DNA of 30,007 bases. It comes from a virus. The notes beneath the pieces were generated by a model that was not told where the DNA came from, did no database searches, and saw only the letters and a list, made by a program, of their open reading frames with translations. Location of the stretch: IMG/VR virus record IMGVR_UViG_3300030085_003019, positions 1,508 through 31,514 of that record; one strand, written 5' to 3'. A program made the position numbers and the translations under genes. Positions 3,001 through 21,962 of this stretch are shown in pieces (position 1 is the stretch's first letter; every line of letters starts with the position of its first letter).

Positions 3001-6000
3001 AATTATATCGTAACTCGTATTAATTCCGATTCCTTCAAATTATCGGCAGCAGGGATTGGTACAACATCATCTACTTTAAACTATAATAATAATATCTTTA
3101 CCAAATTTGATACCGTTGGATCTGGTGGAACTCACATTTTTAATTATCCTGATATTAGTGTAAGTATTACCGGTAATGTTGGTATTGCAACCACCAATAA
3201 TCTAACATTCGCATCTTCATTGACTCCAAAATTTAGAGGAACCATCTCTAAAATTAATCTTGAAAAGGGTGGCATTGGATATGGATGCTCAGACATTCTT
3301 AATTTTGAACGTCAATCTTTGATAACGTTTGAAAATGGAACTGGTGCTCAGTTACAACCTGTTATTGAGGGATCTACTATTAAGGAAGTTTTTGTACTTA
3401 ATGGTGGAAAAGGATATAATTCTATTCCTGATTTAAAGATTACTGGATCTGGAAAAGACGCTAAACTGACTCCAATTATTACAAATGGAGCGATCACTTC
3501 AATTACTGTTAATAATTCTGGTGTTGGATTCTCAACTGGTACGACTTTTGTTGATGTCATTCCAAATGGATTGGGGGCAAAGGCAAAAGTATCCATTAAA
3601 TCCTGGAATGTCAATGAGTTTGAGAAAAAGAGAAATTTACTGGGTGTAGATGATGCAATTCTTCGGAAATCAAGTAATCAATATTCTAAGGGAAGTGTTG
3701 CATCATTGACCGTTCCCAGAGGTCTCAGGGAGATCATATATTCAAAAAATGAAGATGGTTCCTTTAACTTTGGTGCAGATACTTTTGATTTAATTAAAGA
3801 TAACAATATAGAAATTCCTTCTAAGAATCATTCACCAATTATTGGATGGGCAAATGATGGTCATCCAATTTATGGACCTTATGGGTATGATCAAGACACT
3901 GGTGGTGCAATTAAAGCACTTCAATCTGGTTATATTTTAGATCCAAGTCCAGAAAGACCCACAGGATTTCCAGATGGATTTTTTATTGAAGATTACAAGT
4001 TTGAATCTAATGGAGACTTAGATGAGCATAATGGAAGATTTGGTAAGACCCCAGATTTTCCAAATGGGGTATATGCATATTTTGCAATCATTTCCTCAGG
4101 TAAAGCAGATAGTGATGGTTCGTTTAAAAATTATAGACAACCACAATTCCCATACGTAATCGGGGATACTTATAATTCTGTTCCTACCGAATTCAACATC
4201 GATAGAAAAAATAATCAGGTTGATTTTAATTATGAAGGTGAGGGTTTAATTAGAAACACAAGACCATCGAAGACTAGTAATCTTCATGGGTTTAATGAGT
4301 ATATCAATGATACAACCAGAGAAGTAGATCAGATCAGCACAATTGAATCTACTACAAAGGGTGAAATTACAGGGTATGAAATTGTTTCTGCTGGAACCAG
4401 TTATAAGAGTGGAGATGTGCTCCATTTAGATGGAGACCCACAATATGGCAGACAATCCAGATTATCTGTTGGAAGAGTTGTTGGTAAAAAGGTTGTATCT
4501 CTTGCATCCTCAACAATTAGTTCAGAAAATCTTGAACTTTTTGTTGGTGGTGGTCTTGCCATCGGTTATTGCACTTCTCCCCACAATTTTGAAAATAAAA
4601 ACAGAGTTGTAATTTCTGGATTATCAACGGAGTCCTTTGCAAGTTTAAATGGCACCCAAAATATCTTCAATCCACAAAGACTTTGGAGAACTAATGAATT
4701 TATCGATACACCAGCTAATACTGGTCTGACAACTACTATTGCACTCAATGGTCCATATGATCCTCTTTACGTAAGAGAGAATACTATCATTGGTATTGGA
4801 CAATCTGCCGAAAATCTTGAACAACTTAAAGTTCTTAATGTAGACCCTTTGAATTCTGTAATGAGAGTTCAAAGAAATCAAAATGGCACTGTGGGAACTT
4901 CATATTCTACGGGCACTCTTGCACTTGATATTCGTGGTTCTTTCAGCTTCAATGTCGGAGTTGAGACCTTTACCAGTAACCCACCAACATTCCAAAGATA
5001 TTTTGATCCGTCCGAAGTAGTTGGACTCGGAACCACTGCGGTGGTTGGTGTTGGAACTACAATTGCATATCATGCACTGAATAATATTGCACCTCCCCAT
5101 TTACAAGAGAACACAGACTATCAACCAGGAACTGCACACACCAGCAGAATTATTCCTATCAAGACAATCTTGATTCCTAATCACTCTTTTGAGACCGGCG
5201 ATAAACTGACATATTCAAATGGTGGTGGAACTTCCATTGAAGTATCTGATGGAATTGGCACTTTTGTTCTTTCAGATCAATCGACAGTATATGCTATTAA
5301 AGAGTCCACAAATCTTCTTGGCATTTCTACTACCAAGGTTGGTTTGGGATCTACCGGTTCTTTTGTGGGACTTGGTTCTACTGCTGTTCAATTAGCATTT
5401 ACTGTTGCTGGATTAGGTGTTACTCATAGTTTCAAGAGAGAAACCTCTCCCATTACTGCTGATGCAAATGCACATGAAGCTACTCTAACAACTGAGGAAG
5501 CACATGGATTAACTTTTAATGATCCGATTAGATTAGTTGCATCTCCAAATAAAGAGCAAATTGTATTTGTTCAATATAATGATTATAATAGAAGAATTGT
5601 ATTTGATAGAAAGAAGTTTGAACCTACTGGAATCACATCTACAACTAACAGTATCAACATTCAGAATCACAATTTGGTGAGTGGTGATAAAGTCATTTAT
5701 AGCACTGGTGGAACCGCACCATCTGGAATGGCGGATCAAAAAATTTATTATGCAATTAGAATTGATTCAAATAATTTAAAACTCGCAGCAAACAAGGTAG
5801 ATGCTATTGGATCTAATCCTACACCAATTTCTATCGGTGGAACAGGAAGTGGTGAACATTTCTTATCTAAGGTTAATCCAAGAGTTGATGTTAAAAAAGG
5901 TAATACTGTTTCTTTTGCAACCACCGACTCTTCCCTGTCAATTGTTGCATCTGGATCTACTTTCTCAGCGTTTGATTTGAAATTCTATGAAGATGCTGGA

Positions 6001-9000
6001 TTTAATAAGGAATTTAAAACGAGTGGAACAAATAGAGAATATGAAGTGTCTGGAATTGGCACCATTGGTGTCACAGATCCATCTGCGGTAAACATAAGAA
6101 CAAATAATCTGATACCAGAAACACTTTTCTATAAGTTTATTCCGATTAATATTGATATTTCCCCAACAACAAAAACCGAACTGTTCATAGACACTGAGCA
6201 AGATTCTGCAAACACAATTAATTTAGTCAATAGTGTATATCAAGTTTATGAATATCCAACTGGCATTGGCACAACCACCTTCAAATTCAATTTGACGGAA
6301 AAACCCGAACGAACCAGTTATGGATCTTCTGAGGGGACTTTCTACTACACTCACAAATCTCTCAATGCTACCGGACCAATTGACACAATTAATATTAAGA
6401 ATAGTAATAAAAATTACTTAGATCTTCCTGGCATCACTTCCATCGGATCTACTACTGGATCTGGTGGTTTGATTAGATTGTCCGGTAACATGGGCAGTAT
6501 AAACAGAACTCGTAAGCAAAGTGTTGGTTATGATTATCCATCTGACCCAACATTTAAAGTAATTGCAAACACTCCCGAAATTTTAAGAATTGAAGGTTTG
6601 AGTTCTTTTGATAGCGTTGGAATTACTTCTGGTGGAAATGGTTATAATATCGAACCAAGAATTGTGGTTATTGATGCAATTACTAATAAAAAAATTGAAA
6701 ACGTAATTCTTGAACCAAAAGTAAAAAATGGTGGTATTTCTGAAATTTTCATTAGAGAGAATGCCAAAAATCTCTCTGACGTTGCACCATCTCTTATTAC
6801 TGTAAACAATCCAAATGGTGTTGGAATTGATACTGTTGGATTCAATACTATCACAAAAGAAGTTACACTTAATCTGAACACTGGATTCTCAACTGCGGGA
6901 TCTTTCCCATTCTCGGTTGGAGGAAAAGTTTTTGTTGAAGGCGTTGGTATTGCATCCACTGGATCTGGATATAATTCGCCAGATTATAACTTCAAATTCT
7001 TTGAAGTAACTGCAATTGATGCGAATATTGGTGGAATTGGATCCATCACTTATAAGCTAGATTCTGATGTTTCAAATCCAGGAATATATGTGACAACGAG
7101 ATCTGCGGGAAGAGTTATTCCATTTGAAGACTTCCCTGTATTCAATCCAATCTTGAAAAAGAATGAATTCTCATTTACTGAGCAAATTGAAGCTACTAAT
7201 AAAGATGAAGTTAAGTATGGCACAGTTTCTGGTTGGGACACTAAAAATAAGATTTTAAAAGTCAATTCTACAAAAGAAATCTTAGTTGGTGACCTTATCA
7301 GAGGCATTGGATCTGGAACTTTTGGAACAGTATCTGAAAAAATTAATGTAGATTCATACTATGATATCACACCTGTTGAGGAGGTTGTAAGAGGATGGGA
7401 TACTGACACTGGTAAATTGAGCATCAATGAGCAGAGATTAATTGATAGTGATTATTACCAGCATTTCTCCTACTCTTTGAAATCTAAAATCGCTTATGAC
7501 ACTTGGAATGAAATCGTGTCTTCCATGGCCCACCCCGGTGGATTTAAGAAGTTCTCCGATTTGCAGATTGAATCTAAGGATGAAAATAATCGTCCTGTTG
7601 GAATCACTTCAAACACAATCGAATTATTTGTTGATTTGATTAGTGAGGTTGAAACATATTGTCGTTATGACTTTGATTTTGTTTCAGAAACCTCCAAGTT
7701 CATCTCTGGTAATTTCTTATCTAATCAAATATTGACAAGAAATATTCCAATTTCTGATTATGAAGAATCTGTTGGAAATAGAGTTCTTTCCATCGACAAT
7801 TTTTCGGGTGAATTTAACAACACTCCAAGAGCAACTAGGTTCACCGTAATTGATAGATTCCCGATTGCAGGAACTCGTTATAGAAAATACTTTGCGTTGA
7901 CATTTGACACTCAGTTCATTGATACCAGAAGAATGGAAATCATTGAACTATTGATTGATAATAATGGAAACGGATTTATTCAAGAATTTGGATCTGTTGA
8001 TGGTTCTGATGATCTTAATGGATTCTTTGATTTCCAGGTTCGTGGTAGTGAAGGCGAATTATTATTCTTCCCAGATAAATTTGACACAAATAATTATGAT
8101 GTTCATGGATTAGTCTATAACGTTGATAGAGATATTCACACTGCTGTTGGTATCTCAACTCTTGTCGGTATTACAACTGTTGGTGATATTATTCAACTCG
8201 CAACAAGAGGATCTAAAATTAATGCTGGTGTCACAACAACTGTAAACATCTATGATATTCCTTTGACCAACATGGACGCTGGTCATAAATTTATGATTCA
8301 AATGACTGCTGGTGAGTTGCATGAAGTTGTTAATCTCAACGTATTGCATGATGATACCTACGGATATGATCTTCAATATGGTGACATGTCTAACATCGAT
8401 CCATCTTCCACCACAGCTACTACCGGAGGTATTTGTACATTTAGTTCCTATGTTGAAAATAACATCTACTACATCAATGCTACACCAGCGTCAGGTGTAA
8501 CTGGAACTGGTATTACGTTTAATATCTTTGGACAATGTTTCCTTGGTGGTGTATCAACGGTTGGAATTGCCACCGTTGAATTGACAACTGGCGACATCAG
8601 AGCTCAGTATCAAGGTATCTCTGCCTCAGCATCACCTGGTATCACAACTGTTGCAACTTTTGGTAATGAATCTATTAGTGAAGAAGGAGGACATGTTCTC
8701 TTCCACATTGAGGATGTGACAAATGATAAATTTGAACTGCTTGAAGGCATCTTCATGCATGATAGTAATGGTGAGATTTATCAAACTCTCTTTGGTGCAA
8801 TTGAGACTGACAATAACAGTGGACACTCTGGTATTGGTACAATTTCTGCTATTAAAGATGGTGATAAGTATAATGTTGTTTATGTGCCACCCGCATCAAC
8901 TGAGGTAAGAGTAAAAACTGTTACTACTTCTGCTTCACAAACCAAAGGTGGCGTTGAAGGACTGTTTGAATTGGATCTTGTTGATACTAAGATTTCTTCT

Positions 9001-12000
9001 TTTGAAGGATCTTATACTAACACTAATGCTGACGTTAGAAGAGCGTTTGGTCTTTTCCATGGTGGTGATCCAATCTTCTTCCAAGACTTTGATTCCACAG
9101 ATTCGCTCATTGTTGATACTGATAATGATCTTATTACACTCCCAAATCACTTCTTCTCCTCTGGTGAAAGATTGAAGTACAATCCAACTGGGTCTGGCAC
9201 AACTTCTTCCGTTGGTATTGCAACTACAACGATCAGTGGATATGGTTCTACTGACAAACTCCCTGAATATGTCTATGCAATTAAGGTTGATGATAAATCA
9301 ATTCGCCTCGCTGGTTCACCAGAAGATGCTCTTGCATCCAATGTTGGTAACTATCTTGATTTAACCACAGTTGGTATTGGCACCTCTCATACATTTACTT
9401 CTCAGGATCAAAATACTAAGTGTATTATTGCTGTTGATAATAATATTCAGGATCCAGTTATTCCTGGTAATGTTGAGCACACTCTTGTTGAACAGATGAG
9501 TTTTGGTGGAGAAACATTAAGGATTTCTGGAATCACATCAATCTTTGGTGGGGATCTTCTTAAAGTAGAAGATGAATTTATGAGAGTCAAACAAGTAGGA
9601 TTTGGTAGCACTAATGTTCTTGTTGTTCAGAGAGCATGGATGGGTACGGGTCTTTCAACTCACCCAAATGGTGCTCAAATTGAAAAATATGAAGGATCTT
9701 ATAACATCGTTGATAACACAATTAATTTCTATACTGCTCCTAATGGATTGAAACCTGCCGAAGGAACTGATCCCGATGATCTCGACTACACTGGCATTCA
9801 AACAACAGCTGTTTTCCAAGGGAGAGCCTTCCTGAGAAATGGAGTTGTTGGTGCAACAACTCATACTTATGCAACCAACTTCCTCTTTGATTCGGTATCC
9901 CAAGAACTAACTGGTGTTGGTAAGACTTTCACCATCAAAGAAAATGATGTAAACGTTTCTGGATTCAGCACAAGTCATGCTTTGATCTTGATTAATGATA
10001 TTGCTCAAATTCCATCACAAGATGCACGAATTAATGATTTTGAGTTTACTGAAAATGCTGGTATTACATCTATCGTATTCAGTGGATTTGCTGCTTCTGT
10101 AACCAATGATGTAAACACTGGTTCTGTTCCTGTTGGTGGTGTTATTGTCTCGGTCGGATCGACACAAGGATTTGGTTATCAACCTCTGGTTGCTGCTGGC
10201 GGCACCGCAATTGTTTCTGGATTTGGTACTATCTCTTCTATCAGCATTGGTAATAGTGGATCTGGTTACAGAACTGGAATTGCAACTTACAATGGTGTTG
10301 TTCAAGAACTGACTTATAACGTCGGACTCAGAACTGCTGATATCGATACAGTTGAGGTAACTGCCATTGGTACTGCAACGGTTGTAAATGGTAATGTCAC
10401 TGGTGTCTCAATCACTCCGACCGAGAATCCTGGTACTGGTTATACATTTAGCAATCCACCAATCGTTGTTTTTGATCAACCAATCCCATATACTCGCATT
10501 CCGCTGATTTATCATCCAGATTCCCCTGGTTCTCAAATTGGCACAAATGCATTTGTTGATGTTCAAGTCTCGCTTGGATCTAGTGTTTTAAATTTTGATA
10601 TTATCAACACTGGTTATGGATATAAGGTTGGAGAAATTCTAACCATTCCAAAGGGTGGTATCACAGGAATTCCAACTGACTCCACCGTTGGCGCTGGATT
10701 TAGTGATTTCAGAATCGATATCAACAGAGTGGATTCTGATAAGATGACTGGTTGGAGATTTGGTGATCTTGATGTATTTGATAAACTTGATACTTTCTTT
10801 GACGGTCAAACAAGAGTATTCACCATGAGAAAGAATGGAACACCTACATCTATTAGAGCTGCCAAAGGTTCTTTAATTGATGTTAAGCAAACTCTTCTTG
10901 TATTCTTAAACAACATTATCCAAGAACCAGGTGTTGCATATCAATTTGATGGTGGTTCAAATATCACATTTATTGAACCACCAAAGGTTGGCGATACTTG
11001 TGCTATTCTCTTCTATCGTGGTACGGGTGGTGTTGATGTTATCAGTCGAGATATTATTGAAACAATTAAGACTGGTGATACTGTAAAAATTAATGCAAAT
11101 GATTCGCAAAATAAACTTGTGTTCGATCAAAATAGAAGATTTGTTTCTGGAATTGCAACTGCTGATACCTTTAATACTTCTTCTTATGATGGACCTGGGT
11201 TAACTACGGATGTTACAATCCAAAGACCCATGACTTGGTGTAAGCAGCAAGAAGATCTCTTCCTGAATAACAAAGCAATCACCAAAGACAGAACTTTATA
11301 CGAAGCGAACATCTTACCAAAAACAAATATTATCAAAGCAGTTGGACTTGGTTCTACTGAAATTTGGACCACTGGTGTCTTCCCTCTATTTGATTCCTAC
11401 GCGGAAGCTCTTCCTGAGGTTAAACAAACTGTCCAGATTATCAATCAAGACACTAAGATCGCTGCTGCTGCGACAGCAATCATCTCTGGATTTGGCACTG
11501 TCTCCTCAATCAGCGTCACAAACTCTGGTCTTGGATATACAGTGGCACCTCTGGTTTCTATTGCCAATAGCGTTGGTTTTGGTTCTGCCACCAGAGCAAC
11601 TGCTACTGCATCGATAACTGGAACAGCAGTTACTTCGATTAGTGTAAGTAGTGCTGGTGCTGGATATACATTCTCCAATCCACCAGTTGTCCTTCTCACA
11701 CCACCTAATTTTGATAAAGAGGAAATCAAAAATGTTGATTACTCTGGTGACTTTGGCATTATCTCTGGTGTTGGAACTACATCTATCGGAGTTGCAACTA
11801 CGGGTCTAATCTTTGATCTGTTAATCCCTGATGGATCTCCTCTGAGAAGCACTTCTGTAATGGGACCAGGTGCAGCAAGAACAATTTCTAATATCGCAAC
11901 TGGGTATCCATTTGTAGTCTTTGACTCAAATATTGGTCAAGGAGTTACTTCTCTTGATCTTGGTGGTGCCACACTTGGAATTGGTTCTACGTGCTTGGAT

Positions 12001-12288
12001 AATGTATACGAAGCAGTTTCTGTTTCGATTGCAACAACAGAGGCAGTTGGATTTGGAACTACACATGTTGCAAGAGTTGTTGTAAGTGTTGCAAGCACTG
12101 CTGGTATAACTGGTTATGGACATAGCGAATTCTTTGGTAAGTTTAGTTGGGGTAGACTTCAAACCTTTACCAGATCTGGTATTGCTAAGACCTTTACTCC
12201 AACTCTTAATAATGGTGTTACAGGAATTACAACTGGTCCTGTTATCATTAGAAGAACACCACTCAAATCGGTTGGATATTTAACATAA
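1..12288 (+). CDS. Giant virion protein, probable baseplate/tail component in the T4 gene 7 position (YHYH-type domain)
   Basis: This 4095-residue protein lies directly upstream of gp8, where T4 has gene 7 (about 1030 residues), so a baseplate-wedge or tail role is inferred from position. The N-terminus (MLEKRVKIQSVVENQLP) resembles the usual start of cyanophage homologues, so the ATG at base 1 is probably the true start, though its ribosome site lies outside the window. Visible parts: an NDEIISYTG...CIRGFSGITSYH module (residues about 77-135); a conserved FYKSKGTSDGFEILFRALY block (about 193-212); GxGY beta repeats (about 750-1200, 3378-3500, 3817-3904); a YHYH-like domain (about 1281-1393); a conserved DSDYYQHFSYSLKS...HPGGFKKFSDL block (about 2482-2520); and an LNNIIQEPGVAYQF block (about 3635-3650). 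At least six HxxxxGDxVxY...KLA modules lie between. There is no signal peptide or membrane segment. Homology to gp7 itself is not visible. Confidence 0.9.
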   Translation: MLEKRVKIQSVVENQLPIFLGAELEGASDLLKTYYKSQEYQGGPVNILENIDQYTKVGTYSSIVGFTTVTSNIDFDATTINVGDTSGWPDKYGLLKINDEIISYTGKTQTTFTGCIRGFSGITSYHSNNGPDELIFESSSAEEHVAADSVENLSSLFLEEFFRKLKAEYLPGLENASLYPGLNRSNFIKQATDFYKSKGTSDGFEILFRALYNDEVEVLKPQDNLFAPSDADYRKVLRLNAFPDPANLDITEKYLSGFITKNVYQEDKDGNITASGSVVASERIITDKGAYFQIDLDFVERKDSVVVGSIYGDFKITPQTKVLGNVAAGATFVDVESTIGFPENGELSIRFDNNDVGVVTYKSKNITQFLDLDGLIEGVLDKEEIFDTSRAYGVLDDGTEFDFRIKGSLGDYKIKATDLGTPYFKKGDIIKNQSLGYSKNNIVTDSLISNETSRFKIENAKILNQNQLGQNPNIISLYQIQTTENHNLNIGDSIQVITPTKLETSGVVNNILSSKVFDVSGLSGFDPDKGGEVRRLLTKVNSENDVVNSLPANVVKSFYDTNDSVYIASHSLPKYSDPINIKTGNVILTDNGKSATAPLILSGDTIDYVGHGFFTGDEVYYKPDEFVEYDASYGEPIAITTTRNLGDLQRGSYFVKKLDNDSFKLAESRANIFNSKFVDVTGIASNQILYPIDSYENQLDSSYGLRKVSRFIETPNEKAKTKSGHIGFLINGVDLHSYKSEDFCYYGNLTSVDVLSGGSDYDVINPPNIIITDSVGTGATATATVVGSLEEIEVTNSGYDFLEDPVINISGGNGTGAKAKANLRSEKTVAIVDASVGAGNISTATNVIGFSTYHRLRNGDAIVYNSNSQTAIGIGTTSGSQVRDAYLVNNSIYYVNVRSLSEITLHGHQSTALAGVSTINITTFGEGNHYFTTVAEKKILSSVTVESGGSGYTNNPIKLSSSGVSTSKNQINFINHGFSSGEVIQYRHEGTPISGLTTDQNYIVTRINSDSFKLSAAGIGTTSSTLNYNNNIFTKFDTVGSGGTHIFNYPDISVSITGNVGIATTNNLTFASSLTPKFRGTISKINLEKGGIGYGCSDILNFERQSLITFENGTGAQLQPVIEGSTIKEVFVLNGGKGYNSIPDLKITGSGKDAKLTPIITNGAITSITVNNSGVGFSTGTTFVDVIPNGLGAKAKVSIKSWNVNEFEKKRNLLGVDDAILRKSSNQYSKGSVASLTVPRGLREIIYSKNEDGSFNFGADTFDLIKDNNIEIPSKNHSPIIGWANDGHPIYGPYGYDQDTGGAIKALQSGYILDPSPERPTGFPDGFFIEDYKFESNGDLDEHNGRFGKTPDFPNGVYAYFAIISSGKADSDGSFKNYRQPQFPYVIGDTYNSVPTEFNIDRKNNQVDFNYEGEGLIRNTRPSKTSNLHGFNEYINDTTREVDQISTIESTTKGEITGYEIVSAGTSYKSGDVLHLDGDPQYGRQSRLSVGRVVGKKVVSLASSTISSENLELFVGGGLAIGYCTSPHNFENKNRVVISGLSTESFASLNGTQNIFNPQRLWRTNEFIDTPANTGLTTTIALNGPYDPLYVRENTIIGIGQSAENLEQLKVLNVDPLNSVMRVQRNQNGTVGTSYSTGTLALDIRGSFSFNVGVETFTSNPPTFQRYFDPSEVVGLGTTAVVGVGTTIAYHALNNIAPPHLQENTDYQPGTAHTSRIIPIKTILIPNHSFETGDKLTYSNGGGTSIEVSDGIGTFVLSDQSTVYAIKESTNLLGISTTKVGLGSTGSFVGLGSTAVQLAFTVAGLGVTHSFKRETSPITADANAHEATLTTEEAHGLTFNDPIRLVASPNKEQIVFVQYNDYNRRIVFDRKKFEPTGITSTTNSINIQNHNLVSGDKVIYSTGGTAPSGMADQKIYYAIRIDSNNLKLAANKVDAIGSNPTPISIGGTGSGEHFLSKVNPRVDVKKGNTVSFATTDSSLSIVASGSTFSAFDLKFYEDAGFNKEFKTSGTNREYEVSGIGTIGVTDPSAVNIRTNNLIPETLFYKFIPINIDISPTTKTELFIDTEQDSANTINLVNSVYQVYEYPTGIGTTTFKFNLTEKPERTSYGSSEGTFYYTHKSLNATGPIDTINIKNSNKNYLDLPGITSIGSTTGSGGLIRLSGNMGSINRTRKQSVGYDYPSDPTFKVIANTPEILRIEGLSSFDSVGITSGGNGYNIEPRIVVIDAITNKKIENVILEPKVKNGGISEIFIRENAKNLSDVAPSLITVNNPNGVGIDTVGFNTITKEVTLNLNTGFSTAGSFPFSVGGKVFVEGVGIASTGSGYNSPDYNFKFFEVTAIDANIGGIGSITYKLDSDVSNPGIYVTTRSAGRVIPFEDFPVFNPILKKNEFSFTEQIEATNKDEVKYGTVSGWDTKNKILKVNSTKEILVGDLIRGIGSGTFGTVSEKINVDSYYDITPVEEVVRGWDTDTGKLSINEQRLIDSDYYQHFSYSLKSKIAYDTWNEIVSSMAHPGGFKKFSDLQIESKDENNRPVGITSNTIELFVDLISEVETYCRYDFDFVSETSKFISGNFLSNQILTRNIPISDYEESVGNRVLSIDNFSGEFNNTPRATRFTVIDRFPIAGTRYRKYFALTFDTQFIDTRRMEIIELLIDNNGNGFIQEFGSVDGSDDLNGFFDFQVRGSEGELLFFPDKFDTNNYDVHGLVYNVDRDIHTAVGISTLVGITTVGDIIQLATRGSKINAGVTTTVNIYDIPLTNMDAGHKFMIQMTAGELHEVVNLNVLHDDTYGYDLQYGDMSNIDPSSTTATTGGICTFSSYVENNIYYINATPASGVTGTGITFNIFGQCFLGGVSTVGIATVELTTGDIRAQYQGISASASPGITTVATFGNESISEEGGHVLFHIEDVTNDKFELLEGIFMHDSNGEIYQTLFGAIETDNNSGHSGIGTISAIKDGDKYNVVYVPPASTEVRVKTVTTSASQTKGGVEGLFELDLVDTKISSFEGSYTNTNADVRRAFGLFHGGDPIFFQDFDSTDSLIVDTDNDLITLPNHFFSSGERLKYNPTGSGTTSSVGIATTTISGYGSTDKLPEYVYAIKVDDKSIRLAGSPEDALASNVGNYLDLTTVGIGTSHTFTSQDQNTKCIIAVDNNIQDPVIPGNVEHTLVEQMSFGGETLRISGITSIFGGDLLKVEDEFMRVKQVGFGSTNVLVVQRAWMGTGLSTHPNGAQIEKYEGSYNIVDNTINFYTAPNGLKPAEGTDPDDLDYTGIQTTAVFQGRAFLRNGVVGATTHTYATNFLFDSVSQELTGVGKTFTIKENDVNVSGFSTSHALILINDIAQIPSQDARINDFEFTENAGITSIVFSGFAASVTNDVNTGSVPVGGVIVSVGSTQGFGYQPLVAAGGTAIVSGFGTISSISIGNSGSGYRTGIATYNGVVQELTYNVGLRTADIDTVEVTAIGTATVVNGNVTGVSITPTENPGTGYTFSNPPIVVFDQPIPYTRIPLIYHPDSPGSQIGTNAFVDVQVSLGSSVLNFDIINTGYGYKVGEILTIPKGGITGIPTDSTVGAGFSDFRIDINRVDSDKMTGWRFGDLDVFDKLDTFFDGQTRVFTMRKNGTPTSIRAAKGSLIDVKQTLLVFLNNIIQEPGVAYQFDGGSNITFIEPPKVGDTCAILFYRGTGGVDVISRDIIETIKTGDTVKINANDSQNKLVFDQNRRFVSGIATADTFNTSSYDGPGLTTDVTIQRPMTWCKQQEDLFLNNKAITKDRTLYEANILPKTNIIKAVGLGSTEIWTTGVFPLFDSYAEALPEVKQTVQIINQDTKIAAAATAIISGFGTVSSISVTNSGLGYTVAPLVSIANSVGFGSATRATATASITGTAVTSISVSSAGAGYTFSNPPVVLLTPPNFDKEEIKNVDYSGDFGIISGVGTTSIGVATTGLIFDLLIPDGSPLRSTSVMGPGAARTISNIATGYPFVVFDSNIGQGVTSLDLGGATLGIGSTCLDNVYEAVSVSIATTEAVGFGTTHVARVVVSVASTAGITGYGHSEFFGKFSWGRLQTFTRSGIAKTFTPTLNNGVTGITTGPVIIRRTPLKSVGYLT
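2248..2478 (+). repeat. GxGY-type beta repeat, two tandem units (giant tail protein)
   Basis: Two units of the pattern (hydrophobic strand)-x-x-G-G/S-x-Y-x-x-x-x-P-x-(hydrophobic strand)-G-G-A-x-A-x-A. The first reads VLSGGSDYDVINPPNIIIT followed by GTGATATATV. The second reads VTNSGYDFLEDPVINIS followed by GTGAKAKANL. The alternating strands and glycine turns suggest a stacked beta solenoid or small beta-prism units. The fold is inferred. Confidence 0.75.
3244..3606 (+). repeat. GxGY-type beta repeat, three units (giant tail protein)
   Basis: Three consecutive units: LEKGGIGYGCSDILNF with GTGAQLQPVI; VLNGGKGYNSIPDLKI with GKDAKLTPII; VNNSGVGFSTGTTFVDV with GLGAKAKVSI. They follow the same pattern as the repeat at 2248-2478, and a lone unit (VESGGSGYTNNPIKL) lies at about 2815-2880. 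Confidence 0.75.
3838..4179 (+). other. YHYH-type domain inside the giant tail protein
   Basis: Residues about 1280-1393 carry IGWANDGHPIYGPYGY, then a DLDEHNGRFGKTPDFPNGVYAYFAI block and a closing PQFPYVIGDTY. This is the order of motifs I know from YHYH-family proteins, which are mostly bacterial secreted or surface proteins and also occur in cyanophage virion proteins. The biochemical role of the family is not known to me. The histidine and tyrosine residues suggest ligand or metal binding, but that is inference. Confidence 0.7.
10132..10500 (+). repeat. GxGY-type beta repeat, C-terminal cluster 1 (giant tail protein)
   Basis: Three units: TQGFGYQPLVAAGGTAIV; TISSISIGNSGSGYRTG; and ENPGTGYTFSNPPIVVF. 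The second is nearly the same as a unit in the gp14 extension (ISAISIGNSGFGY). The third matches a unit 1.2 kb downstream in the same protein (AGAGYTFSNPPVVLL). Confidence 0.75.
11449..11712 (+). repeat. GxGY-type beta repeat, C-terminal cluster 2 (giant tail protein)
   Basis: Two units: VSSISVTNSGLGYTVAPLV with ATRATATASI, and ISVSSAGAGYTFSNPPVVLL. The ISGFG-T-[IV]-SSIS leader shared with the cluster at 10132-10500 suggests internal duplication of this unit within the gene. Confidence 0.75.
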
Positions 12289-13859: not shown

Positions 13860-16800
13860 ATGCCCCAGGAAACTAATCTCAATGTCACTCCATATTATGA
13901 TGACTTTGATCCAGCCAGTAATTTTCACAGGGTTCTTTTTAAACCAGGAACTCCTGTTCAGGCAAGGGAATTAACTGGATTACAGTCAATTCTTCAAAAC
14001 CAGATTGAAAAATTTGGTACGCATTTTTTCAAAGAAGGTGCGAAAGTAATTCCTGGGCAACTTTCATATCAAGATCTTTTCACTGGCATTTGTATTGATT
14101 CGGATTTTGCTGGTCTCCCGGTCAGTCTATATGTAGATCAGTTAGTTGGTAAGAAATTTAGAGGGCAAGATTCTGGTATTGAGGCAAGAGTTGATTTTGT
14201 CTTACGTGCCAATGATTCTGAATTAAATTTAGATACTTTATATTTTACAATCACTAAGTCTGGATCTGATCTTTCTACTGGTGATTTTGTTGAGGGAGAG
14301 GATCTAATTCTGTTAGATTCTTTGTCATATGGGAATACTGTAATTTCTGCAAATCAAGGATTTGCAAGAGCAGTTTCTACTGACTGTAATATTACTGGTT
14401 CTGCTGCTAATATTCAAGAGGGTGTATATTTTTTAAGAGGTAACTTTGTAACGGTTAGTCCTCAAACCATTTTATTGCAACAATATCAGTCAATGCCAAC
14501 TGTTAAGGTTGGTTTGTCTGTAATTGAAGAAATTATCAATTCGGATGAAGATCCATCTCTTAATGATAATGCTCAGGGTTATAGTAATTATTCTGCACCT
14601 GGCGCAGATAGATTAAAAATTACTGCTCTTCTAACTTCAAAACTGATCAGCGATAATGATGATCCAGATTTTGTTGAATTGATGAGAATTCAAGATGGTG
14701 AACTTGAAACCTTTGTAAAAAATACTGACTACAACTTCATCAAAGCAGAGTTTGCAAGAAGAACTCATGATGAGTCTGGTGACTACTATATTCAACCATT
14801 TGGTCTTTCTATCAAAAATACCCTCAATAACTATCTGGGTAATGATGGTCTGTATAATGAAGGGGAACTGACATATCAGGCAAATACTCCATCTGATAAT
14901 TTAATGGAGTATGTTATTTCTTCTGGTAAGGCATACGTTAGAGGATTTGAAGTAGAGAAGCAGACTGATACTGTAATTGATATTGATAAACCAAGAACTA
15001 CTAGACAAGTATTTCAAGAGGCAGTTCCTCTTTCTGTTGGACCAAAACTAACGATCAATAATCTCCATGGTTCGCCTGTTGTAGGATTTGGCACAACCAT
15101 TGCTGCTATTCTGAGAGACGAAAGAGTTGGTGTTGGATCAACTGTTGCTGCTGGTAGTGCCATTGGCGAATGTAGAATCTATGACTATAACTTAGAGTCT
15201 CAGGTCTTTAAAGGTCCAGAATCTGAGTATACTCTCAGACTTTTTGATATTTCTCCATACACTAAGTTAGAAATTACTCAACCATTTACGTCTCTGAGAG
15301 CAGGAGCTTTCCTCTCTGGACAATATAGTGGCGCTTCTGGATTTGTTGTTGATGATGCGTCTGGAAGTTCCACATTTAGTCTCAGACAGGTTAGAGGATC
15401 TTTCCACAAAGGAGAAAAGATTGCAGTTGATGGTATTAATTATAACACCACTGTTGCGATTACGACCAACTACGATATTTCAAAAACAAAGTCCATTTAT
15501 CAGGGCACCACTGTTGGTATTCAAACCTTCAACGCTGATCTCAAATTAACGACTAAGAGAAAGTTTGGAACACCATTTACCATCAGTGGTAGAGGTGGTA
15601 GTAGTGCTGATACACTCCCCGCAGGTTTTAGCACAATTACCGCTGAGCAAGGAACCTTCGTAGGCATTGTTACTACGAATGATCTTGTCAGATTTATTTC
15701 CACTGACAGTGCTATTTCTGATCCTGTTGTGCTGAGGGTTCATAGCATCAACAATACTGCCTCTGAGATGACTCTGGCAGGCATTCAGACGGTATCTAAT
15801 GTCTTTGAGGGTGCTCCTCCACAAAACGTACAACAAATCACTGATCTTGAAGTTGTATCCGGCGATTTAATCAATGTAGAAGATAATACGTTCTTCACCA
15901 CTCTTGGTGTTGAAAATATTGATAATGTAGATCTTGGTACAGCAAATATTGTAATTAAGAGAGTATTTACTAATGTTTCTTCTGCTTCAAGCACTCTCAC
16001 ATTAGAAACTGCTCCTGCTAATGAGGCATATCTCCCATTTGACGAGGAGAGGTATCATGTTGCATATTCTGATGGCACCATTCAACCTCTTACCGAGGAC
16101 ATGGTTACACTTGCAACTAATGCAAAAACAGTAACCATTGCTGGTCTTGATCGCGAAGAAGAAACAAATATTAGAGTATTTGCTACTCTTAACAAAAATA
16201 GAGTTCGTGAAAAATTAAAGAGACTCAACAATGTTTCTTCTGTTCTGGTTACCAGATCTAGCGATGCCTCATCTGGAATCGGAACCACTACTTTGAATGA
16301 TGGTCTTACTTACAGTAATGTATATGGAACCAGAGTTCAGGACAAAGAAATTTCTCTGAACAAACCAGATGTTCTAAGAGTTCTTGGTATTTTTGAATCG
16401 GATGATCAAAATGATCCGAATTTGCCAACAGTGACTCTTACGACCATGAGTGGTCCAAATCAAACAACTTCCGACTTTATTATTGGCGAAAAGTTAATCG
16501 GTGAAGATAGTAAAGCAGTTGCAAGAGTTGTCTCAGCAGTTTCTGGAACAGTATTAGAGGTAGTATATCTCAATAACAAGGTTTTCACACTTAGCGAAAG
16601 GTTAAGTGGAAAGACTTCATCTGTTGGAGCAATAGTAGCTGACATTGGTCAGGCAGATAAGAACGTCACTGAGGACTATTCTCTTGATAATGGACAAAGA
16701 AATTCTTTCTATGATTATGGAAGAATTGTAAGAAAGAAGGGAAGAGAAAATGCTAATAGAAAACTTAGAGTAATTTTCCAAAATTATGCAGTTGATGCTT

Positions 16801-19800
16801 CTGATACTGGTGATATCTTCACATCTGAAAGTTATGATAATGAACTGTATAGTAATGATATTCCATCTTTTGAAGGTGTAAGAAATACGGATATTCTTGA
16901 TATTCGACCAAGAGTTAGTGATTACAGCACATCATCTACTACATCTCCATTTGATTTTGCTTCCAGAAACTTCACTGGTAGTGGTCAATCAGTTCCAAAT
17001 ATTTTGGTTTCTGATGAGAATATCGTCATTAACTATGAATACTATCTTGGTCGTATTGACAGAGTGTTCTTAGATGCGTTTGGTAAGTTTAACGTTGTTA
17101 ATGGTGTACCAGCAGTTAACCCTCAATTGCCACCTGCTCTGGATGATAATTTAGAGGTTGCCACAATTAAACTTCCCCCCTACATGTTCTCTATTGATAG
17201 CGCATCTATCAAGAGAGTTGAGCATAAGAGATACACCATGAAAGATATTGGTGATCTTGATAATAGAATTACTAATCTTGAATATTATACCGCACTTTCT
17301 CTGTTAGAAAAAGAAACTGAGGCACTTACGATTCAAGATGCCAAAGGTCTTGACAGATTTAAGAGTGGTTTCTTTGTTGATAATTTTAAAACTCACCAAA
17401 TTCAAGATCAATCAAACGAAGACTTTGATTGCTCAATTGACACTTACAATGGTGAATTAAGACCACCTCACTATACCACTGCTATTGATCTTGTCTTAGC
17501 AACCGCAGCAGTGACTGGAATTGGTGCGTCTTTACCAGATACATTAGACAATCGTTTCAATACTCAATTAACTGATCCAAATCTTAGAAAGACTGGTGAT
17601 GTCATCACTCTCAACTATGCAGACTTGGTTTTCATGCAAAACCTGTTTGCATCTCGTGTTGAATCCGTCAACCCATTCCTTGTAACTAATTGGACTGGTA
17701 GACTTCATCTCTATCCATCATCTGACAACTGGGCTGATCAGAAGGTTATTAAAACAGCAGAGTTTGATGTAAATGGTCCCGATTTTGTTGCCTCAACTCA
17801 AAAACTTGGTATTGAAGAAGCAAAAGGATTTGCTGAAATTGAATGGGGTTCTTGGGTAGATAGCATCATTGGTAGAGAAACTAGAACTGCTGATAATACT
17901 GTTGTTACCAGCACAACTAAGCAACTCAACGCAACTGATGATATTAAGACAACCACTACCCAAGTTGTAAGAACAACTTCTGATGTACAACTTCACAAAC
18001 AAGTTAGAGATGGTGTTGCTATCAGGACATCTCCCCACATTGAGAAGAAAACAGTTGGTAGTAGAGTTCTGAATAGATCTGTTATTACGCATATGAGATC
18101 GCGTAATATTGAATTTAAGGGAACTAGACTCAGACCAAGAACTCAGGTATTCCCGATTCTGGATAATGTCAATATGATTGACTTCACAGCACCAAAACTG
18201 CTTGAAGTCGCTATGACATCTGGAACATTTGAGGTTGGAGAGACCGTTGTTGGTACAATGTCCAGAGCAGAGTCTGGAATTAATCCAACGCCTGATGAAT
18301 CAACTCCAACGTTTAAGTTTAGATTAGCGGAAGCAAATCATAAGACTGGACCTTTTGATGATCCAACAGCAACTTATGACTTAAATCCGTATAATAACGA
18401 CGAAACTCTTCCAGATGATTACTCATCAGTCTCATCTGTATTGAATGTTGATACTACATCTCTTGCATCGAAAGTTAATGGAGATTTCTTCGGATATCCT
18501 CGTAGAGGAATGATCCTTAAAGGTCTTACTAGTGGAGCACAAGCTACCGTAGATGACATTAGATTAGTCACCGACGAAGTAGGTTTTGTTGTTGGTTGCA
18601 TCTTTGTTCCAGATCCATCTAAGGCAACTAACCCAAGATTCTTAACTGGCAGTAAGATTGTCAAACTTACTTCAATTCCAAATACAAACTTCGTTTCCTC
18701 CCTGAACCAAACGTCAGCAGAAACTACTTTCCAGGCAAGTGGTTTACTTGAATTTACAGAAGAAACAGTTCTTTCGGTAAGATCAACTGCACTCCATCAG
18801 TCTATTTTCCAAGAAACTACAAATTCTGAAACTATTCTCGGTTCTTCGGATGCAGTTATTAGTGAAGTTAGTGAAGATACGATCCTTAGAAATGTAAGAC
18901 AGAGACCTAGTGCAAACTGTGATGCACGTTATGTTGCATACACTGTTGCTATCAATAACGGATACAGTTCTTACACTGCATATGCACGTGCAGTTGATGA
19001 CTATGGGAAAGGTCTAATCTACAATACTGCTGTTCTTTTAACAAGACCTGGTGCTCCCACTGAATGTGGTGGATCTGGTGGTGGTAGATCTCCTAGGAGA
19101 AGTCCAAGTAGAAGAAGAGGTGGTGGCAGAAGAAGAAGATACAGAGGAAGAGGAAGAATACAAAGTAGAAGAGGAGGAAGAATCTGGAACTTTGATGGTG
19201 CTGGTAGACTGATTGCTACCAGAAATCTTTCCAGAACCAGAACCCTCTACACTTCTAGAAGAAACAGTGGTAGAAGTGGAAGATCTTACGCCAGAAAGGG
19301 TGTAACCAGACATGGACCCACCGGACGTGGTGGTGGAAGAAGTCGCGGTGGAGGCGGCGGCGGAAGACGCAGTGGCGGCGGTGGTGGTCGCTCAGGTGGC
19401 GGCGGAAGAACTTGGAACTTTGATAGAAGCGGTAATCTGATTCCAACCGGTCAACTTGGTAACACAAGAACTGCTAGTACGAGAAGATGTAAGAGTGGAA
19501 GAGATCCTCTGGCACAATCCTTCTTTGTCAACTCCGCTGATGGCATGTTTGTCACCGCCATTGAGGCATACTTCCAAGTCAAAGATACTACTCTGCCTGT
19601 GACAATGCAGATTAGAACTATGAGGGATGGCACACCAACTACTACGATCCTCCCATTTGGTGAAGTTGATCTGATGCCATCTCAGGTTAATATTTCTGAT
19701 GATGCATCAGTGGCGACTAAGTTTACTTTCCCATCACCAGTATATCTCAAAGGTAATACTGAATATGCATTCGTCCTTCTTGCGGATACTCCTGAATATG

Positions 19801-21962
19801 GTGCTTGGATTTCTAGAATGGGCGAAGAAGATGTCACTGGAACTCTGACTGATGAAAATGCTACTAGACAAGTAATTTCTCAACAACCTCTGTTGGGTTC
19901 TTTATTCAAGTCTCAAAACGGTTCTACGTGGGATGCAAGTCAGTTTGAAGATCTTAAATTTACCATGTACAGAGCTCAGTTTACAACTGGGACAACTGCT
20001 AATGCATCGTTCTACAACCCTGACATGGGTCTTACAAATGGTGGTGTTACAAAACTTGGTCCAAATCCAGTTCAAACTATTAGTAGAAAAACTACTGTTG
20101 GACTTGGTGCTACTTTAACTTCCGCAATGGAAGCAGTTGTTATTGATGGTGTTAACATTTCTCAGGTTAACAACACAACTGCAACTGGTGTTATTATCGA
20201 TACCCTTGGTTCTATTGGTATTGGTGCTTCTGTCGATATTATTAATGCTGGTATCGGATACACTCCATCTGCTGGTTTTGCAACCTACACTGCAAATCTT
20301 ACTACTTTCTCTGGTTCTGGATCTGGCGCAATCGCTAGTGTCACTGTTAGCAGTGGGGGTATCACATCATGCTTTATCACCAATGGTGGTACAGGATATG
20401 CAGTTGGTGACGAACTTGGTATTAGCACCTTGGGTAGCACCACTCTTGGTAGAAATGCAAGATTTAGTGTTGGTATTATTTCCGCGATCAATGCTCTTGT
20501 TCTTGATGGAGTTCAGGGTCAATTTGTTACCGGAACTGCTGGAACAATGACTTATGTTGTTCAAGAAACTGGTGCTGTTGGAATTCTTACAGGAGTTTTT
20601 GCTGACAGTGCGTCTGATAATACAGACTCTGATGGTTTACATTTGAATATCAGACATAGAAATCATGCCATGTATTCTGGTGTAAATGGTGTTAGTATTT
20701 CTAATGTAAAACCAGACATGAGACCTACAACTCTCAGTGCTGATATTGAAGCAACTGCTACTGGTAATATTGGACTTGCAAATACGTCTAAATTTGAAAC
20801 CTTTGAAAATGTGGGTGTTGGAACCACAAACCCAGGATATGCAGTTATTGGAAACGAACTTATTTCTTATACAGGCATTACTGGCAATGCTTTATCTGGA
20901 ATCACCAGAAATATTGACAGTAAAGGAACCTTCGCACATAACGCAGGTGACTTAATTTCTAAGTATGAATTGAATGGAGTCTCTCTTAGAAGGATCAACA
21001 GAGATCATACTCTTAGCGATGCAACCGTTGGAAATGCAAGAAAACTTGATTCTTACGCAATCAAGATTGATATGTCTTCCAATGGCATTGATCGATCTGT
21101 CAACACTTCATTCCCCAAACTTGGATTCAACTCTCCCAAGAAAGTTGGTGGTGATAATGTAACCGGTGGAAACAACATTCAGTTTGAGACTATCACTCCA
21201 AATGTTCAGAACCTCACTCTGACTGGTACGACCTTAAATGCAAGTATCAGAACAGTTAGTGCGACTAGTGTTGATGGTGGTGAGCAATCATTCTCTGATC
21301 AAGGTTACGAACCAGTAACTCTCAATGAACCAAACGAACTTGACAGTCCAAGAATGATTGCATCTAAGAATAATGAAAATGTTATTTTAAGTGATCTCCC
21401 CGGAAATAAATCTTTCACTCTTGATCTTGAATTCTTCTCAGACAATTCCTTTGTTTCTCCTCTGGTTGACCTTGATAGAGTTCAAGCTATCCTTACTTCA
21501 AATAGAGTGAATTCACCAGTATCCGACTTCTCACAAGATAGAAGAGTCACCGTCACTGGTGAGGATCCTAATGGTGCGATCTACATCACTAAGAAAGTTG
21601 ATCTTGCAAATCCAGCAAACTCTATCAAAGTTCTTCTGGATGCATATAGAGATCAAACTGCTGATATCAGAGTTCTGTATAAGATCTTTACCGATGATAG
21701 CAGCATTGATTCTGTACCATACAACTTGTTCCCAGGTTACAATAATCTTGATGATCTTGGTAATGTTATTGATGTTGCGAACAATGATGGTAGATCAAAT
21801 GTACTGGTCACACCTAGTGACCCAGGACAATTCAAGGAATATGAATTCTTCGTTGATGATCTTCCAGAATTTACTGGTTTCCAATTGAAGATTGTTATGA
21901 CTGGAACAAATCAAGCAAAACCACCTCGTATCAAGAATCTCCGTACTATCGCTGTAAGATAA
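13860..21962 (+). CDS. Giant DUF4815-type baseplate/tail virion protein with Arg/Gly-rich insert
   Basis: The 2700-residue protein starts like DUF4815 proteins (NVTPYYDDFDPASNFHRVLF, then KPGTPVQARELTGLQSILQN), a family of phage tail or baseplate proteins. Later landmarks are a predicted helical stretch with DIGDLDNRITNLEYYTALSL (about 1131-1150); MRSRNIEFKGTRLRPRTQVF (about 1412-1431); a basic Gly/Arg/Ser-rich insert (about 1735-1880); a conserved beta domain from RDPLAQSFFV (1881) through YLKGNTEYAFVLLAD; two GxGY units (about 2124-2192); an NELISYTG...H module (about 2298-2370); and a C-terminal YITKKVDLANPANSIKVLLD...ADIRVLYKIF domain. It occupies the place of T4 genes 9-12 and wac, so a role in the outer baseplate or fibre attachment is inferred. 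The ATG is 4 bases after the gp8 stop, with AGAAG just upstream. The gene ends in a TAATG overlap with the next one. Confidence 0.9.
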   Translation: MPQETNLNVTPYYDDFDPASNFHRVLFKPGTPVQARELTGLQSILQNQIEKFGTHFFKEGAKVIPGQLSYQDLFTGICIDSDFAGLPVSLYVDQLVGKKFRGQDSGIEARVDFVLRANDSELNLDTLYFTITKSGSDLSTGDFVEGEDLILLDSLSYGNTVISANQGFARAVSTDCNITGSAANIQEGVYFLRGNFVTVSPQTILLQQYQSMPTVKVGLSVIEEIINSDEDPSLNDNAQGYSNYSAPGADRLKITALLTSKLISDNDDPDFVELMRIQDGELETFVKNTDYNFIKAEFARRTHDESGDYYIQPFGLSIKNTLNNYLGNDGLYNEGELTYQANTPSDNLMEYVISSGKAYVRGFEVEKQTDTVIDIDKPRTTRQVFQEAVPLSVGPKLTINNLHGSPVVGFGTTIAAILRDERVGVGSTVAAGSAIGECRIYDYNLESQVFKGPESEYTLRLFDISPYTKLEITQPFTSLRAGAFLSGQYSGASGFVVDDASGSSTFSLRQVRGSFHKGEKIAVDGINYNTTVAITTNYDISKTKSIYQGTTVGIQTFNADLKLTTKRKFGTPFTISGRGGSSADTLPAGFSTITAEQGTFVGIVTTNDLVRFISTDSAISDPVVLRVHSINNTASEMTLAGIQTVSNVFEGAPPQNVQQITDLEVVSGDLINVEDNTFFTTLGVENIDNVDLGTANIVIKRVFTNVSSASSTLTLETAPANEAYLPFDEERYHVAYSDGTIQPLTEDMVTLATNAKTVTIAGLDREEETNIRVFATLNKNRVREKLKRLNNVSSVLVTRSSDASSGIGTTTLNDGLTYSNVYGTRVQDKEISLNKPDVLRVLGIFESDDQNDPNLPTVTLTTMSGPNQTTSDFIIGEKLIGEDSKAVARVVSAVSGTVLEVVYLNNKVFTLSERLSGKTSSVGAIVADIGQADKNVTEDYSLDNGQRNSFYDYGRIVRKKGRENANRKLRVIFQNYAVDASDTGDIFTSESYDNELYSNDIPSFEGVRNTDILDIRPRVSDYSTSSTTSPFDFASRNFTGSGQSVPNILVSDENIVINYEYYLGRIDRVFLDAFGKFNVVNGVPAVNPQLPPALDDNLEVATIKLPPYMFSIDSASIKRVEHKRYTMKDIGDLDNRITNLEYYTALSLLEKETEALTIQDAKGLDRFKSGFFVDNFKTHQIQDQSNEDFDCSIDTYNGELRPPHYTTAIDLVLATAAVTGIGASLPDTLDNRFNTQLTDPNLRKTGDVITLNYADLVFMQNLFASRVESVNPFLVTNWTGRLHLYPSSDNWADQKVIKTAEFDVNGPDFVASTQKLGIEEAKGFAEIEWGSWVDSIIGRETRTADNTVVTSTTKQLNATDDIKTTTTQVVRTTSDVQLHKQVRDGVAIRTSPHIEKKTVGSRVLNRSVITHMRSRNIEFKGTRLRPRTQVFPILDNVNMIDFTAPKLLEVAMTSGTFEVGETVVGTMSRAESGINPTPDESTPTFKFRLAEANHKTGPFDDPTATYDLNPYNNDETLPDDYSSVSSVLNVDTTSLASKVNGDFFGYPRRGMILKGLTSGAQATVDDIRLVTDEVGFVVGCIFVPDPSKATNPRFLTGSKIVKLTSIPNTNFVSSLNQTSAETTFQASGLLEFTEETVLSVRSTALHQSIFQETTNSETILGSSDAVISEVSEDTILRNVRQRPSANCDARYVAYTVAINNGYSSYTAYARAVDDYGKGLIYNTAVLLTRPGAPTECGGSGGGRSPRRSPSRRRGGGRRRRYRGRGRIQSRRGGRIWNFDGAGRLIATRNLSRTRTLYTSRRNSGRSGRSYARKGVTRHGPTGRGGGRSRGGGGGGRRSGGGGGRSGGGGRTWNFDRSGNLIPTGQLGNTRTASTRRCKSGRDPLAQSFFVNSADGMFVTAIEAYFQVKDTTLPVTMQIRTMRDGTPTTTILPFGEVDLMPSQVNISDDASVATKFTFPSPVYLKGNTEYAFVLLADTPEYGAWISRMGEEDVTGTLTDENATRQVISQQPLLGSLFKSQNGSTWDASQFEDLKFTMYRAQFTTGTTANASFYNPDMGLTNGGVTKLGPNPVQTISRKTTVGLGATLTSAMEAVVIDGVNISQVNNTTATGVIIDTLGSIGIGASVDIINAGIGYTPSAGFATYTANLTTFSGSGSGAIASVTVSSGGITSCFITNGGTGYAVGDELGISTLGSTTLGRNARFSVGIISAINALVLDGVQGQFVTGTAGTMTYVVQETGAVGILTGVFADSASDNTDSDGLHLNIRHRNHAMYSGVNGVSISNVKPDMRPTTLSADIEATATGNIGLANTSKFETFENVGVGTTNPGYAVIGNELISYTGITGNALSGITRNIDSKGTFAHNAGDLISKYELNGVSLRRINRDHTLSDATVGNARKLDSYAIKIDMSSNGIDRSVNTSFPKLGFNSPKKVGGDNVTGGNNIQFETITPNVQNLTLTGTTLNASIRTVSATSVDGGEQSFSDQGYEPVTLNEPNELDSPRMIASKNNENVILSDLPGNKSFTLDLEFFSDNSFVSPLVDLDRVQAILTSNRVNSPVSDFSQDRRVTVTGEDPNGAIYITKKVDLANPANSIKVLLDAYRDQTADIRVLYKIFTDDSSIDSVPYNLFPGYNNLDDLGNVIDVANNDGRSNVLVTPSDPGQFKEYEFFVDDLPEFTGFQLKIVMTGTNQAKPPRIKNLRTIAVR
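19061..19500 (+). repeat. Arg/Gly/Ser-rich low-complexity insert with duplicated WNFD unit
   Basis: About 145 residues are rich in Gly, Arg and Ser (RSPRRSPSRRR, GRRRRYRGRGR, GRSRGGGGGGRRSGGGGG). Inside are two copies of a unit reading GR-x-WNFD-x-x-G-x-LI-x-T-x-x-L-x-x-TRT, with the tryptophans at residues 1776 and 1852. One cysteine lies near each end (ECGG and RRCKSG). The DNA is locally G-rich with GGC/GGT runs, unlike the AT-rich surroundings. It sits between two conserved halves of the protein, so it is probably an exposed linker or insert. Confidence 0.85.
20229..20436 (+). repeat. GxGY-type beta repeat pair in the DUF4815 protein
   Basis: Two units, VDIINAGIGYTPSAGFATY with GSGAIASVTV and CFITNGGTGYAVGDELGI. 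Same pattern as units in the giant tail protein, gp8 and gp14. Confidence 0.7.

Follow-up and report, generated by a model that had tools for sequence, protein, structure and literature searches.

What does a strongly basic, glycine-rich segment do inside a phage tail protein? An initial annotation of the window, the 30,007-nt stretch of viral DNA analyzed here and taken from a 31.5-kb metagenomic virus record, had placed such a segment, likened to eukaryotic SR/RGG tails, at 19061-19500 within a tail protein. The ORF at 13860-21962 matched PF16075 (DUF4815) in Pfam (E 1.4e-64, 218.9 bits against a cut-off of 30), phrog_358 in PHROGs (E 0, 2080 bits) and, by sequence, the baseplate DUF4815 protein of Staphylococcus phage phi812 in the PDB (9euf, E 1.5e-40). 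A region of the ORF also gave a fold match to the phi812 baseplate (9eui, E 1.6e-11), and this relative, matched in both sequence and fold, is a baseplate component of solved structure (9euf/9eui). By homology, we identify the ORF as a DUF4815/VrlC-type baseplate protein of a T4-like phage, which bears out the placement of the insert in a tail protein. In cyanophages, the phrog_358/DUF4815 protein is named VrlC or "structural protein." VrlC is the name of such proteins in cyano- and pelagimyophages, where it is regarded as part of the baseplate, and DUF4815/VrlC proteins are core baseplate parts of cyanomyophages and pelagimyophages (PMC7029224). Elsewhere in the window, positions 1-12288 hold a 4,095-aa ORF that runs from base 1 and contains many GIGTT/GVGTT-like repeats. 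The features discussed below are as follows, in window coordinates.

13860..21962, + strand: 2,700-aa DUF4815 baseplate protein carrying the insert, assigned from Pfam PF16075, phrog_358 and PDB phi812.
18900..19502, + strand: the entire insertion of this lineage, about 201 aa when compared with other T4-like phages, delimited from linker lengths; absent in the compared isolate phages.
18915..19067, + strand: predicted helical mini-domain of 50 aa, NCDARYV...PGAPTEC, starting at Asn1686 and enclosed by Cys1687 and Cys1736; AF2 pLDDT about 71-82 in two models, NCDARYV invariant.
19065..19067, + strand: Cys1736, start of the basic loop; invariant in carrier alignment A1 and also in L111.
19068..19178, + strand: first Arg/Gly/Ser-rich segment (RSPRRSPSRRR, GRRRRYRGRGR), from the translation; pLDDT about 30-45, dN/dS about 0.54, many indels.
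19179..19259, + strand: first WNFD unit RIWNFDGAGRLIATRNLSRTRTLYTSR, predicted short beta-hairpin; dN/dS about 0.29, in 14/14 carriers.
19260..19406, + strand: central Gly/Arg/Ser-rich linker, with much of the length variation (alignments A1 and A3); dN/dS about 0.43, pLDDT about 25-33.
19407..19487, + strand: second WNFD unit RTWNFDRSGNLIPTGQLGNTRTASTRR, predicted short beta-hairpin; dN/dS about 0.32, replaced in L006.
19488..19490, + strand: Cys1877, end of the basic loop; invariant in carrier alignment A1 and also in L111.
19503..19997, + strand: conserved beta-rich downstream domain beginning DPLAQSF, common to residues 786-948 of the phi812 baseplate protein.

From Cys1736 (19065-19067) to Cys1877 (19488-19490), the protein runs for 142 aa comprising 37 Arg, 1 Lys, 2 Asp, no Glu, 40 Gly and 15 Ser, a low-complexity composition of Arg/Gly or Arg/Ser character. 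Arg and Gly account for 77 of these residues, the highest count of any 142-aa stretch of the protein (mean 20.7), and the translation has RSPRRSPSRRR and GRRRRYRGRGR in frame within the single ORF. The two WNFD units start 76 residues apart and are identical at 15 of 28 residues and 50 of 84 nt. At 116 (BLOSUM62), the score of the best internal repeat exceeded those of all 500 shuffles (mean 51, maximum 92). The basic, glycine-rich character, the spaced duplicate and the cysteine near each end, all described at the outset, were thus upheld, and the cysteines are conserved in the carriers. The reported GC-richness was also real (50.5% in the segment vs. 40.5% in the flanks) but has no separate meaning, since third-position GC equals that of the flanks (26.1% vs. 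27.4%); the excess comes from the Gly and Arg codons and gives no reason to suppose foreign DNA, an origin rejected as a reading of the GC content. The segment uses Arg codons much as the gene does elsewhere, AGA being dominant, and its DNA contains imperfect short tandem repeats of 21 bp. A minus-strand ORF at 19038-19313 (91 aa, Ser-rich) mirrors the Arg/Gly codons; as their complement, it was not accepted as a gene.

A carrier scan of 2.9 million viral contigs placed the basic segment in 14 viral contigs (scan carriers L002-L013 and L111; L112 and L114 end inside or before the loop). The comparison set consisted of 80 loci found via the next, DPLAQSF domain, with identities given relative to the window. 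The insert was present in all loci 81-97% identical to the window in that domain (L002-L013) and in none of those at 65% or below whose linker could be read, a few of which begin too near the domain to show it. Between a conserved upstream anchor and the DPLAQ-type motif, ordinary relatives have 66-99 aa, loci with acidic or NIT repeats have 137-167 aa, and carriers, whose linkers have net charges of +8 to +39, have 249-288 aa; the linker of the window protein is 278 aa long. The linker before the DPLAQ-type domain is a hotspot of lineage-specific inserts. The interval first assigned to the insert does hold the basic segment but begins too late, because the insertion relative to T4-like phages starts at about 18900 and includes the helical mini-domain.

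No tblastn match to 18888-19502 was obtained in 50,697 phage records, and the insert was not seen in the compared isolate phages. The basic segment had no match in Pfam, PHROGs or PDB, the weak PDB rows being antibody chains, and no confirmed relative in the genomes of 84,980 bacterial and archaeal species. Over the viral contigs, a WNFD pattern returned nine contigs, all known carriers, and a YNFD pattern returned five, namely four known carriers and L129. By these searches the insert could be assigned to no known family, and the SR/RGG likeness holds for composition but not for homology. The window region and the genes downstream found their best matches in cyanophages. Many cyanophages carry psbA, and because a 194-kb relative has this gene (evidence on the clade that comes from the relative and not from the window record), the carrier group is probably cyanophage.

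Both cysteines, NCDARYV, PGAP and most of the first hairpin core were invariant in an alignment of 12 carriers, and L111 has the same cysteines, NCDARYV, PGAP and first-hairpin features. The length between the cysteines ranged from 113 to 153 aa across carriers. Both WNFD units were present in 13 of the 14; in L006 the first is kept, and an FNRAPIAR copy plus RGG repeats stand in place of the second; the loop of L013 is serine-rich and far less basic than the others. Pooled over carrier pairs, dN/dS was lowest in the downstream domain (0.09), followed by the upstream part (0.15), the mini-domain (0.25) and the two hairpins (0.29 and 0.32), and was highest in the Arg/Gly parts (0.54 and 0.43). 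These ratios are rough, given large pooled synonymous differences of about 0.5. By this measure the hairpins are under purifying selection and the Arg/Gly parts under weaker selection.

Outside the hairpins, the 14 carriers together have 1,301 residues, among which we counted 1 Glu (90 expected), 5 Asp (51), 15 Lys (84) and 327 Arg (166), the expected numbers being derived from base composition, single for all codon positions, with related sequences treated as independent. Because the sequences are related and codon position is ignored, the missing Asp, Glu and Lys and the excess of Arg are strongly indicative without having the force of a formal test; the segment seems to have been selected to be arginine-rich. 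Purine-tract drift as the sole cause is disfavored, since Glu and Lys are nearly absent though base composition predicts many. Identity among WNFD units was 63% and 70% within types and 55% between types, and because units are more alike within than between types, the duplication is probably older than the spread of the clade. Over about 25 residues the mini-domain occurs as two allele types (YARAV..GLIYNTAVLLTR and YHNST..LYNTAWLLTQ; loci L002, L003, L006 and L007). L003 and L005 have nearly identical Arg/Gly loops and different mini-domain cassettes, which suggests recombination of the cassette. FNRAP(I/S), another short motif, has two copies in the L006 loop and one copy in L111, and L008 has the related SSPIARRG.

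Because the overall pTM of the AF2 model (554 aa, 42 sequences) was low, at 0.33, only its local features were used. The pLDDT was 25-48 across the Arg/Gly parts, short strand pairs appeared at both WNFD units, and values on the helical mini-domain were about 71-82, with 74-82 in a second, separate model. A fold search with the mini-domain model returned no PDB match at E <= 0.001. Low pLDDT points to disorder without proving it: the modeled loop would be disordered apart from two short hairpins, and a small helical domain is predicted to precede it. Across relatives, then, we found varying length and predicted disorder and not one length with an ordered fold throughout. The earlier reading of a variable, flexible linker stands insofar as the loop varies, is predicted to be disordered and is basic in all carriers, but the conserved cysteines, first hairpin and arginine bias speak against a mere linker.

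Comparison of the carriers establishes, at the level of sequence, an insertion confined to a single clade, with variable length, conserved cysteines, paralogous WNFD units and an enrichment in Arg with few Asp, Glu and Lys; that this baseplate protein carries a flexible basic loop, specific to the lineage and under selection, is very probable. For its role, our main and still tentative reading, to which we give a probability of about 0.38, is that an exposed polycationic loop in an insertion-tolerant inter-domain linker holds the baseplate on the cyanobacterial envelope before contraction. The loop would be exposed on the baseplate, where its arginines may touch the cyanobacterial outer envelope weakly at many phosphate or other acidic groups, the aromatic hairpins may contribute more specific contacts, and the whole may help keep the baseplate on the cell ahead of contraction; the use of Arg instead of Lys would fit binding at sea-water salt. 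This proposal draws on the homology to the phi812 baseplate, the long basic linkers, the low pLDDT with hairpins, the Arg bias, the selection on the hairpins, the conserved cysteines and psbA. Its weakest step is the host-envelope target. The exact loop sequence appears to be dispensable, as L013 is serine-rich and less basic and L006 lacks the second hairpin, and the sign of the charge is no general requirement at the site, because acidic repeats occupy it in L043, L050 and L055. In addition, an internal partner is as natural as the envelope, because the insert has a net charge of +36 and the protein outside it one of -95.

The same charges suit a serious rival to the main reading: the loop would attach to acidic surfaces on its own protein or on neighboring baseplate subunits, anchored by the hairpins and cysteines, and would stabilize the pre-contraction baseplate. 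The loop and the mini-domain each keep a cysteine at either end, and phage Milano, whose baseplate is locked by intersubunit disulfides, provides a precedent (PMC10811340). A disulfide is only putative here, however, and a 40-aa spread of loop length among carriers, predicted disorder over most of the loop and the fact that other DUF4815 phages manage without it make such an internal staple somewhat unlikely in our view. We also consider it unlikely, to a slightly greater degree, that the loop is a nearly neutral spacer, that is, an insertion-tolerant linker that grew as a purine-rich (AGA/GGA/GGT) tract slipped, with no task other than to be soluble and flexible. Other lineages do place quite different low-complexity inserts at the site (VEV repeats, poly-Pro/NIT repeats, a Lys-rich stretch), and the 21-bp repeats and a dN/dS of the Arg/Gly parts above that of the flanks are in keeping with such a spacer; yet a purine tract should yield Glu and Lys too, which all carriers nearly lack, and the hairpins, both cysteines and the mini-domain are kept despite the changing length.

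A sticker-and-spacer polycation would combine a disordered Arg/Gly/Ser loop with two hairpin stickers, in several copies round the baseplate, and might serve either as a general, salt-tolerant envelope adhesive or, on the acidic baseplate, as an electrostatic latch that can be switched. We regard this as a speculative and rather improbable scheme; a literature search returned no description of such a polycation in a phage tail, nor of relevant arginine-rich disordered baseplate segments. The GGGGGG-like runs and the fast variation of the Gly/Arg parts might instead recall a receptor-binding module of stacked Gly-rich loops, as in the gp38 and Pam3 gp24 tips, with variable ends choosing the receptor, and the fiber tip of myocyanophage Pam3 does contain a domain of Gly-rich motifs with 39% Gly (PMC9608196). 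Here, though, Arg interrupts the Gly runs, AF2 confidence is low there, the PDB holds no match and the segment lies within a baseplate protein, not at a fiber tip, all of which makes this module very improbable. Binding of nucleic acid, whether DNA or RNA, through an RGG/SR-like segment, at genome delivery for instance or to extracellular DNA, is suggested by composition alone and is likewise very improbable, given that the baseplate is distant from the packaged genome and that the segment showed homology to none of the RGG, SR or protamine families. If the basic loop does bind the envelope, as in our main reading, it would promote adsorption from outside the tail fibers and be missed by surveys of folded receptor-binding tips; if it is merely a spacer, it advises caution about inferring function from composition.

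Among known systems, eukaryotic RGG/SR proteins share with the segment the RSP, RGR and GGR composition and the absence of acidic residues, but not homology, and WNFD hairpins and flanking cysteines are foreign to their tails. The S16 gp38 and Pam3 gp24 fiber tips are likewise Gly-rich and rapidly changing, whereas the segment here is Arg-rich, predicted to be disordered and located within a baseplate protein. The WNFD units have the pattern [WY]xFDxxGxLIxT and a predicted hairpin in common with choline- or glucan-binding type repeats, as in the choline-binding-type repeat protein of L129 (5312-5346; IMGVR_UViG_2623621013_000002), which has YNFDNSGALIPTG units. A profile comparison of the WNFD units with the L129 repeats gave a probability of 88% over 15 columns, which is no independent evidence because L129 was found by a WNFD-derived pattern, and ten single WNFD units matched no Pfam family up to E 10. 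The units form no tandem array of the choline/cell-wall-binding (CW_binding) type; two lie 76 aa apart, with one in L006, and the resemblance is limited to the motif.

The nearest likeness is to the DUF4815/VrlC proteins, including that of phi812 (9euf, 9eui), which are alike in their N-terminal and central parts by sequence and in the DPLAQSF domain by sequence and fold. In phi812 and most compared phages the linker is short, unlike that of the window protein, and the Cys-bounded Arg/Gly loop with WNFD hairpins was not found in the phi812 protein or in cultured-phage records. At the same site, before a DPVAQ motif, L065 and L066 have poly-proline and then NITNVTN repeats; before the DPLAQ-type motif, L043, L050 and L055 (also L067) have long acidic Val-Glu-Val/Arg-Glu-Val repeats, with net charges of -14 to -16 in L043, L050 and L055. 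These T4-like inserts (VEV repeats in L043, L050 and L055, poly-Pro/NIT in L065 and L066) resemble the basic loop in their position before the DPLAQ-type domain, low complexity and variable length but differ in being acidic (net -5 to -16) and, in the stretches read, in having no cysteines, hairpins or helical mini-domain. One linker of a conserved baseplate protein receives chemically opposite low-complexity modules by lineage: acidic VEV, poly-Pro/NIT and basic Arg/Gly.
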